Source: an uncultured Eudoraea sp. (GTDB lineage: Bacteria > Bacteroidota > Bacteroidia > Flavobacteriales > Flavobacteriaceae). Taken from it: DNA of 64,000 nt. Position numbers and translations under genes: made by a program. The notes below the pieces were generated by a model, which saw only the letters and a program-made list of their open reading frames with translations, searched no databases and had not been told where the DNA came from. The DNA is taken from assembly GCF_947490415.1 (NCBI RefSeq), contig NZ_CANLGX010000006.1:1-64000 (forward strand), written 5' to 3'. Below, piece by piece: positions 42,746 through 45,810 of this stretch; position 1 is the first letter of the stretch, and the number at the start of each line of letters is the position of its first letter.

Positions 42746-44080
42746 TCATACAATTGATCGTTCTTCAAAAAAGAGAGGGACTGTTATGGGTTTCAATGAG
42801 ATCAGGGGGTTAACTTCAACAGTATTAAGATCTGTACTAATTTGAAATTTCTTAATGACTTGGGCTATGGCGATGATCATCTCATACATGGCAAAATTAT
42901 TCCCCACGCACATTCTGGGACCAGCACCAAAAGGATAATAATAATTAGAATAGTCTCTTTTTAATGCGGTATCAAAACGGTCCGGATTAAATTTCTCAGG
43001 GGCTTCCCAAAAAGCAGATGACCTGTGCAATTCGTAAATAGACATTAAAACCAAGGTGTCTTTGGGAAAGCTTTGCCCCTGAACCACATCATCCGCTATA
43101 GCAGTCCTATCAATGACATATGCCGGCGGATATAGTCTTAAGGCCTCCTCTATACACTGTTTCGTATAGGTTAATTGAGACAGACACTGCATCAGGTCAT
43201 CAGCTTCCAGATCTATATTTTCAACTTCCTTTAAAACTTTATTCTGAATGGTCGGGTGTTTAGCCAACAGAAATAATGTAAAACTAAGCGCATTTGCCGT
43301 GGTCTCATGGCCCGCGGTAAACAGAATAAGGACTTCATCTATTAACTGATGCCTGGGCATATGTGTACCATCTTCATAGGTAGCATTTAAAAGCATGTCC
43401 AGCAAATCATCCTTATCTTCCTTAGAAGCCAGGCGTTCTTCGATAATATTATTTAAAATATTCCTTCCCTGTTCGGCGAGGTTCAGATGCTTTTTTATTT
43501 CACCACTTATATTAAACCACCACTTAAGGTAAGGTTGCCTCATTTCTTTAATTAACATCTTCTGATTGCGCTCGGTAAAATCCTGTAGTCGTTGCATGTC
43601 TTTTTGAATATCTGACCGACTAAAAAGGGCTTGTGCGACCACCTGGAATGCCAAATCGCCCATTAAAGGAAAAACATCCTGAGAAGTGCCGGGTTTAATT
43701 CTTTTTAATTCAGCATCAATAGCCTGTTTCATGATGCTCAATAAACCTTGGAGCTTCTTCTTGTGAAATGCAGGTTGTACCATCCGCCGGTGTACGCGCC
43801 AGTGTTCTCCATTAGAAGTAAGAATTCCGTGTCCAATATATTTGGCTAAATCGACTGTTTGAAGTTCTGATTTCTGATACTTCTTATGCTGTTTTTGAAG
43901 TATATGTCTAATTATGGTAGCATCCCGAGTGAAAATTACAGCTTTCCTAAACCCAATTTTGACCCTGAAAATATCGCCATATTTTTCAAAATTCGCCCTG
44001 TGAAAAGGCAAGGGGTTTTTAAGAATTGTTTTTCTGTTTTTAAAAACGTCGAATTGAGAGATGGTATGGAGGTCTTTCAT
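42746..44080 (-). CDS. Cytochrome P450
   Basis: About 444 residues from the ATG at 44080. The I-helix motif AGHETTANA, the ExxR motif EEALR with LYPPAY, the PERF-like region PEKFNPDRF, and the heme loop FGAGPRMCVGNNFA with its Cys ligand are complete, so it should be an active monooxygenase. It resembles the soluble CYP102/CYP4-like class in bacteria; substrate and redox partner unknown. The frame extends to an ATG at 44119, but those 13 codons are the 25-bp repeat plus linker (44093-44117), not conserved P450 sequence. The repeat ends 12 bp before the true start. Confidence 0.92.
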   Translation of the reverse strand: MKDLHTISQFDVFKNRKTILKNPLPFHRANFEKYGDIFRVKIGFRKAVIFTRDATIIRHILQKQHKKYQKSELQTVDLAKYIGHGILTSNGEHWRVHRRMVQPAFHKKKLQGLLSIMKQAIDAELKRIKPGTSQDVFPLMGDLAFQVVAQALFSRSDIQKDMQRLQDFTERNQKMLIKEMRQPYLKWWFNISGEIKKHLNLAEQGRNILNNIIEERLASKEDKDDLLDMLLNATYEDGTHMPRHQLIDEVLILFTAGHETTANALSFTLFLLAKHPTIQNKVLKEVENIDLEADDLMQCLSQLTYTKQCIEEALRLYPPAYVIDRTAIADDVVQGQSFPKDTLVLMSIYELHRSSAFWEAPEKFNPDRFDTALKRDYSNYYYPFGAGPRMCVGNNFAMYEMIIAIAQVIKKFQISTDLNTVEVNPLISLKPITVPLFFEERSIV

Positions 44081-44092
44081 TGATAAGCTATC

Positions 44093-44117
44093 TGTCAGGC
44101 TGAGCGCAGTCGAAGCC
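44093..44117 (-). repeat. Inverted copy of 25-bp repeat, left side of GIY-YIG cassette
   Basis: On the minus strand it begins GGCTTCGACTGCGCTC and ends AGCCTGACA. It is the perfect reverse complement (25 of 25) of the copy at 44551-44575. Each copy holds a short GGCT/AGCC stem around a 12-nt loop. It starts 2 bp past the GIY-YIG stop codon and lies inside the extended P450 frame. Confidence 0.9.
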
Positions 44118-44118
44118 A

Positions 44119-44439
44119 TTAATTGTAACGGTCGTGGTATTTATAATGTGTTGCATTCCTACACTCGGACAGAATTTGAAGCAATTGATCATCACCACGA
44201 ATCAAAGCTTCTTTTTTTCTTCTAGTCCAGCCCTTTATTTTTTTTTCAAAGTAGATAGCTTGCAATACATCACTAAATTCCTGATAAAATTCAAGTTCAA
44301 GAGGTCTTCTATTATAAGTATAGCTATCTTTTTTACATCCCGATTGATGTTGTTCTATTCGTTTGTCAAGGTCATTTGTAATTCCTGTATAATAGGATTG
44401 ATCTGAACATTTTAATATATAAACGTAATAACTATACAT
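44119..44439 (-). CDS. Small GIY-YIG nuclease-domain protein
   Basis: 106 residues, essentially one GIY-YIG domain: YYVYILKCSDQSYYTGITND carries the two strands (YVY and YTG), then the helix LDKRIEQHQSG with its Arg, the hydrophobic YNRRPLELEF, and Glu in YFEKKIKGW (metal-binding position). This is the UPF0213/YhbQ-like group of single-domain enzymes; bacterial members are often uncharacterised. The gene is framed by inverted copies of the 25-bp repeat, with three copies upstream and one directly after the stop codon. That arrangement suggests a mobile cassette or a nuclease linked to the repeats; this is inference. Confidence 0.85.
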   Translation of the reverse strand: MYSYYVYILKCSDQSYYTGITNDLDKRIEQHQSGCKKDSYTYNRRPLELEFYQEFSDVLQAIYFEKKIKGWTRRKKEALIRGDDQLLQILSECRNATHYKYHDRYN

Positions 44440-44454
44440 TTTCTGTTATGGTTG

Positions 44455-44575
44455 AGCTTCGGCTGCGCTCAGCCTGACTTATTGGAATCTTTAATTATTT
44501 TAGGCTTCGGCTGCGCTCAGCCTGACTTATTGGAATCTTTAATTATTTTAGGCTTCGACTGCGCTCAGCCTGACA
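44455..44575. repeat. 48-bp tandem array, 2.5 units, with three 24-25-bp repeat cores
   Basis: Three cores start at 44455, 44503 and 44551 (plus strand GCTTCGGCTGCGCTCAGC or GCTTCGACTGCGCTCAGC), separated by two identical 24-bp AT-rich spacers (44479-44502 and 44527-44550). The outer core (44551-44575) matches the inverted copy at 44093-44117 exactly; the inner two differ by a G for A, and the innermost also in its first base. The array fills most of the 149-bp gap between the GIY-YIG start and ruvB. Confidence 0.92.
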
Positions 44576-44588
44576 TACTATAAATAAA

Positions 44589-45611
44589 CTAAAACAAACC
44601 GGGTTGTGTGCCTCCTTTTGTTCTGCCCAAATGGGTATATGCCAGTTCTGTTACTTCTCTCCCCCTTGGTGTGCGCATAATGAATCCCTGCTGGATTAAA
44701 AAAGGCTCGTAAACCTCTTCAATTGTTTCCGCACTTTCTGAAACGGCTGTAGCCAATGTAGTAATGCCTACAGGCCCGCCCTTAAATTTATCGATTATGG
44801 TAGTTAATATTTTATTATCCATTTCATCCAATCCGTGAGTATCTACATTAAGGGCTTTTAATCCATATCTGGATATGTCCATATCAATATTACCATCTCC
44901 TTTTATCTGAGCAAAATCCCTTACCCTTCTTAACAAGGCATTGCTTATTCTTGGTGTTCCCCTGCTTCTTCCCGCAATTTCAATTGCTGCATCATCTGTA
45001 ATAGGAACTTTTAGAATCTCTGCACTTCGCAATACTATAGTGGATAGTAGTTCAGTTCTGTAATACTCAAGTCTGCTGGTTATTCCAAATCTCGCCCGCA
45101 TAGGAGCCGTTAACAATCCCGAGCGTGTGGTGGCACCAATTAGTGTAAAGGGGTTCAAATTTATCTGCACCGACCTGGCGTTTGGGCCGGTCTCAATCAT
45201 GATATCAATTTTGTAATCTTCCATAGCTGAGTACAAATACTCTTCAACTACAGGACTTAATCTGTGAATTTCATCAATGAACAATACATCGCGTTCATCC
45301 AGATTGGTTAGTAATCCTGCAAGATCGCCGGGTTTGTCTAAAACTGGTCCTGAAGTAATTTTTATTCCAACCCCCAATTCATTGGCAAGAATATGTGCCA
45401 GTGTAGTTTTTCCTAAACCAGGCGGGCCATGAAATAAGGTATGATCCAAGGCTTCATTGCGCTGGTTGGCCGCCTGCACAAATATCTTGAGATTTTCTAA
45501 TACCTGCTCCTGACCCGTAAAATCATCAAAAGTTATGGGTCTTAGTACACGTTCAATATCCAATTCCTCTTGTGAAAATGAAGAGCCTGTTGGATCAAGA
45601 TTATCGTTCAT
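44589..45611 (-). CDS. ruvB: Holliday junction branch migration ATPase RuvB
   Basis: 340 residues from ATG 45611. Walker [14 protein letters not shown], Walker B in [10 protein letters not shown], sensor 1 [18 protein letters not shown], and the winged-helix end ([18 protein letters not shown]) are all present. RuvB hexamers pump DNA through RuvA-bound junctions. A longer frame from 45635 is unlikely because MNDNLDPTG is the normal type of start. Upstream of it is the divergent pckA; downstream is the repeat array. Confidence 0.96.
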
Positions 45612-45810
45612 ATTTTCAAAGATACTAAAAAACAAAAGGGGTAAATATCACAAAATGTTCTTACTTTTTTATAATGTCGCAATTCCCGGCAACTATATGA
45701 TATTCGTCATCTTTTTTGCGAAAATTTATTGTATTCTTTGCATAGAATTTATGAATTATCACTAAATTATCGAGAGTTAGAAAAGTACAATCACCAAAAA
45801 CAAAATATTA

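Follow-up and report, generated by a model that had tools for sequence, protein, structure and literature searches.

Between ruvB and a cytochrome P450 gene of the window (the whole 64,000-nt stretch of uncultured Eudoraea sp. DNA analysed here) lies a small GIY-YIG nuclease gene framed by inverted repeats, which raises the question of whether nuclease and repeats together form a mobile cassette comparable to REP sequences and their RAYT transposases. We consider it probable (roughly 70%) that this cassette is a selfish element of the REP type in which a GIY-YIG nuclease takes the place of the tyrosine transposase. The locus comprises the following features:

44093-44575: GIY-YIG cassette of 483 bp, with one gene and four copies of a 25-nt repeat
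44093..44117, plus strand: REP-like hairpin 3' of the gene; tag TGTCA at 44093-44097 and pointing away from the gene, loop GAGCGCAGTCGA at 44102-44113, stem formed by 44098-44101 and 44114-44117
44119..44439, minus strand: small GIY-YIG nuclease, 106 aa, assigned to the REP-associated clade (PF01541, E=4.6e-19; protein tree)
44455..44479, minus strand: REP-like hairpin on the 5' side, nearest the start codon (gap 15 nt), tag AGTCA
44456..44551, no strand: two identical 48-nt direct repeats, each a hairpin plus an AT-rich spacer
44503..44527, minus strand: REP-like hairpin on the 5' side, in the second copy of the 48-nt tandem unit
44551..44575, minus strand: outermost REP-like hairpin on the 5' side, matching 44093-44117 as a perfect reverse complement
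44589..45635, minus strand: ruvB, upstream flank of the cassette (PF05496, E=1.7e-77)
42746..44119, minus strand: cytochrome P450 ORF, downstream flank (PF00067, E=7.1e-92 for 42746-44080)

A sequence-only reading of the window had described the two outermost copies as exact reverse complements (25 of 25 positions) bounding the GIY-YIG ORF and nothing else but further repeat copies, of which there are two, and this description was accurate. So was the 2-bp spacing it claimed between left copy and stop codon, as the ORF including its stop ends at 44119 and the repeat at 44117. Three hairpins lie 5' of the gene at 48-nt spacing and one lies 3'; the same spacing was seen at homologue loci L018, L019, L020 and L022, and alignment showed that the copy number of the 48-nt unit differs among congeners. 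Beyond the two flanking genes, queG is next after the P450 gene. The P450 start is likelier at the Met at 44080, the mechanical ORF start falling within the hairpin. Between 44080 and 44119 the mechanical ORF reads MASTALSLTDSLS ahead of this Met, and automatic annotation may mis-call the start here.

Alignment of the flanks of homologue loci resolved the flavobacterial repeat into TGTCA - N4 - GAGCGCAGTCGA - N'4, that is, a constant TGTCA tag and a constant 12-nt loop combined with a covarying 4-bp stem. Among 263 flavobacterial copies the tag was TGTCA in 192, TGTCT in 19, TGTCC in 7 and TGTCG in 4, and the loop was exact in 204. All four stem pairs were present in 241 of these copies with G-T allowed (32 different stems), and with Watson-Crick pairs only 212 were fully paired (19 stems). 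For 100 distinct copies, 92% of stem cells were paired vs 58.1% in shuffles, and the covariation score was 0.943 vs 0.302, falling to 0.13-0.18 when the partner was slid by 1-3 columns. This covariation strongly supports folding of each copy as a single strand. We rejected the notion that the 25-bp arms are terminal inverted repeats pairing with each other, because at a given locus the stem of the left copy often differs from that of the right, each being complementary within itself. Folding energy was dropped as support for the window hairpin, since the prediction for the 25-mer alone (-2.1 kcal/mol) was not better than shuffles (z=0.26). Hairpin 44455..44479 was predicted at -5.3 kcal/mol as DNA, via a different pairing, and two proteobacterial REPs at -9.9 and -9.7 kcal/mol. 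Against R1, a covariance model of the hairpin, 44093..44117 scored 42.3 bits, joint best among the matches listed.

The 16-nt core (up to three mismatches) occurs four times in the window, vs 0.09 expected from shuffles. The genome-wide count proposed in the sequence-only reading gave the same four copies only, at a single place and all in the cassette, across 3,894,028 bases (16-mer with no mismatch, or 22-mer with up to three); reversed-pattern controls over the same genome gave no match. A high-copy REP in this genome is thereby ruled out. The earlier statement that such cores recur in flavobacteria proved sound, as GAGCGCAGTCGAAG was present in 121 of 299 family genomes. It was found in 28 of the 31 genomes with a homologue at E<1e-39 vs 93 of the 268 others (Fisher p=1.7e-9, with genomes binned by E-value exponent rather than by exact threshold); the three homologue-bearing genomes without the core were G171, G254 and G285. 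The 93 genomes that hold the core without a close homologue count against a partnership of nuclease and hairpin.

At the level of individual loci the association is close. A core copy lay within 600 bp of the gene in 77 of the best 80 of 247 homologues, nearly all from records titled as flavobacteria or other Bacteroidota (the misses were L074, L088 and L094), and so the earlier question of whether the repeat also bounds other GIY-YIG genes is answered affirmatively for these homologues; nine of the 80 loci also had a core copy farther off in the fetched locus. In scans designed after inspection of the aligned flanks, the 12-nt loop pattern had a copy within 800 bp of 80 of 81 genes (the 80 plus that of the window, L074 being the miss), at a density of 2.14/kb within 800 bp vs 0.036/kb in the remaining 612 kb of the loci (about 60-fold). 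Copies with outward tags flank the gene on both sides in 66 of the 81 flavobacterial genes, at a median of 21 nt upstream of the start and 16 nt beyond the end of the protein match. At one locus (L127, G299:C1:3868000-3872000) an array of alternating inverted hairpins, with 25 loop matches in 4 kb, surrounds a single GIY-YIG gene. By eye, six loci (L028, L032, L042, L049, L086 and L097) carry a second inverted repeat or hairpin inside a hairpin loop, and in such nested hairpins near a GIY-YIG gene the loop looks as if it were an insertion target.

The window protein is under purifying selection, with dN/dS of 0.04-0.27 against its five closest homologues (L018-L022). In an alignment of 81 rows, Y4, Y17, G19, H31 and E65 are 100% and R27 97% conserved among rows with a residue at that position (77-81 of 81); we take these to be the catalytic residues of the GIY-YIG motif. 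The solved relatives by sequence are two UPF0213 proteins (PDB 1zg2 and 1ywl; E=6.4e-15 for BH0048, 1zg2), a group of small GIY-YIG proteins to which YhbQ and YazA are related. The window protein shares their single-domain fold by sequence; to our knowledge no REP flanks have been reported for UPF0213 proteins. NCBIfam and PHROGs gave no family for the window protein.

A tree of 66 small GIY-YIG proteins showed a two-way split (support 95/82), in which a REP clade of 51 rows held all 42 REP-flanked proteins and 9 unlabelled ones, and a tRNA clade of 15 rows held all 13 tRNA-linked proteins and 2 unlabelled ones; labels came from genomic context, those of L248 and L250 from one hairpin each. 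The tree took 18 of the 81 flavobacterial rows and omitted seven duplicate or broken rows, and its inner order is unsure because alignment columns are few and several branches long.

Four of the five other small GIY-YIG genes of the window's own genome lie at tRNA or tmRNA genes (L010, C2:220641; L011, C1:785672; L014, C1:1095535; L015, C7:124858), and we rejected these genes as further REP cassettes. Members of the tRNA clade in other genomes (L231, L233, L235, L240, L245, L247, L251, L258, L259) have the same kind of neighbour, the adjoining genes of the clade being those for tmRNA and tRNA-Met, -Asn, -Pro, -Ser, -Leu and -Asp. At several of the loci inspected the RNA gene recurs as an additional, partial copy beyond the GIY-YIG gene, which would fit an element that homes into tRNA genes. 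Three tandem GIY-YIG genes joined to repeated tRNA-Pro fragments were found at L231/L244/L257 (G443:C1:1733881-1734727). In the window's own genome, L012 (C8:4722-4931) is a GIY-YIG frame with a stop codon between exact 34-bp direct repeats 495 bp apart, the repeat resembling a terminator hairpin. With the sister clade at tRNA and tmRNA genes, a single nuclease fold may have given rise to two kinds of selfish lineage, one hairpin-bound and the other tRNA-bound. Free-standing GIY-YIG homing endonucleases, such as the phage Seg enzymes, are likewise small mobile genes set between others, a likeness that applies especially to the tRNA-linked clade; we know of no such enzyme with flanking tagged hairpins.

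Since R1 was built from the scanned copies, only its matches outside those loci are independent. Of 296 Bacteroidota genomes, 88 had the hairpin by this model, and their counts often reached the limit of 26 scored candidates. From 14 Bacteroidota genomes of other families, chosen for having hairpins, 30 of 89 GIY-YIG matches were examined and assigned by the protein tree (L244 and L257 being placed with L231, whose array they share). R1 matches accompanied 9 of 12 REP-clade genes, 1 of 13 tRNA-clade genes (L245, weakly) and none of five loci without a small-family match, whereas tRNA genes were present in none of the 12, 11 of the 13 (three of these loci overlapping in one tandem array) and none of the five, respectively. 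The R1 scan detected no hairpins at REP-clade members L237, L249 and L253. Genomes G322 and G583 held at least 26 and 25 R1-scored hairpins (at a scoring ceiling of 26), and their GIY-YIG proteins at E<=1e-6 were long ones only, with no small gene. In G322 (L260-L271) the tagged hairpins are dispersed, mostly as inverted pairs, and often adjoin a CGTCATTGCGAGG-type repeat of similar architecture. TGTC hairpins also accompany GIY-YIG genes on Spirosoma and Planktothrix plasmids; on Planktothrix agardhii plasmid p1 (L288), the gene and three such hairpins lie between an MmeI-type restriction gene and DISARM drmA.

The window repeat recalls a described class. In the survey by Di Nocera et al. (2013, PMC3733652), CGTC REPs have the tag CGTC, often TGTC or CCTC, a stem of 8-9 bp beginning AT, a loop of 4-5 and mostly a CCA tail, form dimers commonly, occur mainly in alpha-proteobacteria and also in Bacteroidetes, and are apparently without a dedicated transposase. 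The short hairpin of the window and of flavobacteria shares with them a terminal, unpaired TGTC-type tag at one end, but in flavobacteria the tag reads TGTCA, the stem has 4 bp and lacks the leading AT pair, and the loop is a constant 12 nt. With its GGCT/AGCC stem, 12-nt loop, no AT pair and no CCA, the window form misses the stem, loop and tail definition, and so we regard the window repeats as a variant and not a member of the class. Whereas CGTC REPs have many dispersed copies, the window's own genome has its four at one place, although the hairpin is dispersed in other genomes. G. forsetii is also a flavobacterium. It is named among the carriers of CGTC REPs in that survey (PMC3733652).

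Canonical CGTC REPs surround small GIY-YIG genes in rhizobia, Azospirillum, Aeromonas, Photobacterium and Neisseria. In fifteen 10-kb proteobacterial loci (14 of 33 records from one homologue search and one plasmid-search record), 13 had CGTC REPs and 10 had them on both sides of the gene, with 49 copies within 500 bp (3.27/kb) vs 26 elsewhere (0.19/kb), and three scrambled tag sets over the same loci gave no match. The scan was designed after inspection of L284 and L286, present in this set as L303 and L302; with both removed, REPs were present in 11 of 13 loci and on both sides in 8, with 39 near copies vs 22 far. Left out of the set were near-identical strains of Rhizobium, Shinella and Sinorhizobium, one further Neisseria record, the Planktothrix and Spirosoma records already inspected, and six from Sphingobium, which are probably similar to REP-less L301. 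The proteobacterial copies fit the described CGTC form, with a stem of 8-9 bp beginning AT, a loop of 4-5 and mostly a CCA tail; their tags (CGTC, CCTC or TGTC) were fixed by the scan design. No hairpins were found by the CGTC scan at REP-clade L299 and L301. Ten of 61 plasmid records were fetched, and hairpins were found in six (by eye in L280 and L282); among these ten, REP-clade loci L281, L283, L285 and L289 had none. At five loci an outward-tagged REP copy starts 50 bp ahead of the gene, an arrangement close to that of the window, in which 15 nt separate the nearest copy from the start codon. In Neisseria gonorrhoeae (NZ_CP119140.1, L304), eleven CGTC-1 (dRS3-type) REPs lie within 500 bp of the small GIY-YIG gene, with a further eight elsewhere in the 10-kb locus.

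The pairing of this small GIY-YIG clade with tagged hairpins is thus real, widespread and undescribed in the literature searched. The string 'GIY' is absent from the main text of PMC3733652, PMC12306157, PMC6006769, PMC8266576 and PMC5082802. Among the matches listed for REP, RAYT, REPIN, dRS3 and flavobacterial repeats, in a library with few subscription papers or preprints, no title or opening of an abstract describes the pairing, and GIY-YIG goes unmentioned in the 20 listed of 67 papers on REP and dRS3.

The evidence that cassettes come and go consists of their presence or absence at corresponding sites. The sequence-only reading had raised the possibility that related genomes lack the segment, and corresponding segments are indeed missing at the same site in Gelidibacter-type and Algibacter-type genomes, and likewise in Azospirillum. 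In the Gelidibacter-type genus (nine genomes), the gap between P450 and queG is occupied in G217, G320, G021 and G316, the right hairpin of G316 being decayed, and lacks both gene and hairpins in G315, G317, G318 and G319; G314 was left out of these classes, as its queG matches lie on two contigs. One site in the Algibacter-type genus is occupied in 3 of 10 genomes, and the other 7 have both flanks and no gene match within the sequence fetched; in three of them the spacer measures about 120 bp. At a second Algibacter-type site, G237 and G313 are occupied and the flanks are contiguous in G309. In Azospirillum lipoferum a hairpin pair, the gene and another hairpin pair lie between sufB and sufC; all of this insert is absent from A. 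ramasamyi, A. oryzae and strain B510, with flanks 95-97% identical, and B510 has a different inverted repeat at the empty site. Several gene neighbourhoods harbour the cassette among the 80 loci, and from genus to genus these often lie a single gene apart.

Within the window's own genus, the gap between ruvB and P450 holds the cassette in G000, G001, G004, G006, G007 and G009, and in G008 the cassette is at a contig end. Cassette and P450 gene are both absent from G002, where ruvB adjoins queG, and G003 gave no match. In G005 (L118, C451, ~11380) the cassette is deleted from inside the left hairpin to inside a right hairpin, with CTGA microhomology. We rejected G005 as a pre-insertion empty site and read it as an internal deletion because the junction retains hairpin pieces from both sides.

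The earlier remark that no target-site duplication is evident extends to the empty sites: neither a duplication nor clean element ends were visible in the three occupied/empty comparisons, which are not a strict negative on either because the empty-site spacers have diverged too far. G316 shows a possible 4-bp duplication, but the signal was too weak to be used. Since no tagged hairpin is present at the Gelidibacter-type and Azospirillum empty junctions, the gene and its hairpins appear to be gained or lost as a unit.

This presence/absence polymorphism is compatible with a homing endonuclease gene, and it might be that such a gene cuts existing REP hairpins and inserts between them, the hairpins spreading by other means. 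Outward tags on both sides do resemble a REP pair into which a gene has been set, hairpin-rich genomes without a small GIY-YIG gene exist, as do the nested hairpins described above, and the sister clade at tRNA and tmRNA genes, with its partial RNA-gene copies, behaves like a homing element. However, with all four copies of the window's genome inside the cassette there are no other hairpins to land on, and the Gelidibacter-type and Azospirillum empty junctions lack the tagged hairpin such an insertion presupposes. We therefore regard this explanation as unlikely.

It is less probable still, and in our view distinctly doubtful, that the hairpins are retained for expression of the gene, as 5'-UTR and terminator structures, and play no part in mobility. 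The similar distances to start and end of the gene would suit such a role, and REPs are known to act on mRNA (PMC5082802). Yet a constant tag and loop with a changing stem would be needless for a terminator, the hairpins are dispersed in many genomes, two of which lack a small GIY-YIG gene, long arrays occur, as at L127, and gene and hairpins are missing together at empty sites. That a Y1 (RAYT-like) transposase encoded elsewhere moves the hairpins, which merely hitch-hike around GIY-YIG genes, is very improbable: RAYT is the known partner of GTAG REPs (PMC3733652 and PMC8266576) and Y1 matches were found in G117, G443 and G388, but no Y1_Tnp at E<=1e-5 was found in the other five of eight genomes searched (the window's own genome G000, G123, G299 and the hairpin-rich G322 and G583, which lack a small GIY-YIG gene), and the 2013 survey found no tyrosine transposase gene with flanking CGTC REPs (PMC3733652).

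A REP-type element with a GIY-YIG nuclease is the reading we prefer. Several results speak against it: the hairpin-rich genomes G322 and G583 have no small GIY-YIG gene, the scans used found no hairpins at nine REP-clade members, the empty sites show no target duplication, the window hairpin on its own has a weak predicted fold, and the window repeats depart from CGTC REPs in stem and loop dimensions and in dispersion. The model of a nuclease acting on short hairpins in analogy to REP and RAYT, put forward from the window alone, gains support from the combination of tag, covarying stem and constant loop, and from the CGTC REPs at proteobacterial members. As in GTAG REP/RAYT REPtrons, a single small nuclease gene lies between inverted tagged hairpins, and gene-less dispersed copies, hairpin pairs and arrays occur. 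Unlike in REPtrons, the enzyme is GIY-YIG (PF01541) and not an HUH tyrosine transposase (Y1_Tnp, PF01797), for which the window's own genome gave no match, and the tag is TGTC or CGTC rather than GTAG. The best reading is that the cassette works like REP/RAYT but is not a member, being a GIY-YIG analogue.

In the mechanism we propose, the nuclease gene would be carried between tagged hairpins whose tags face outward. TnpA-REP recognises single-stranded REP and, in E. coli, depends critically on the GTAG tag (PMC8266576). By analogy, the GIY-YIG enzyme would most likely recognise and bind the tag and hairpin in single-stranded form, as available on the lagging strand or within a cruciform, and cut near the tag, and it may thereby move or maintain the hairpins. 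GIY-YIG enzymes hydrolyse DNA and are not known to rejoin it. The enzyme would thus be expected not to religate, and copying would depend on a host step, in which repair or recombination might copy the hairpin, or hairpin, gene and hairpin, to further intergenic sites. By-products would be hairpin arrays, tandem or inverted, and dispersed hairpins without a gene, and the hairpin ending about 20 nt before the start codon may serve autoregulation.

The recurrence of the pairing in distant bacteria makes this nuclease family a strong candidate for a missing REP partner enzyme. We lean towards the broader view that small GIY-YIG nucleases are the dedicated, missing enzymes of a CGTC/TGTC REP superfamily in Bacteroidota, Proteobacteria and Cyanobacteria (one Planktothrix locus), a second, independent nuclease-REP symbiosis with a sister clade at tRNA and tmRNA genes. 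REPs are among the common bacterial repeats, and while the GTAG type has RAYT, the CGTC type was left without an enzyme in 2013. If our reading is true, an abundant family whose sole annotation is 'GIY-YIG nuclease family protein' would gain a testable function, the origin of many intergenic hairpins, including those of the Neisseria dRS3 type, would become testable with one small protein and an oligonucleotide, and an unrelated enzyme class would have evolved the same lifestyle as RAYT.
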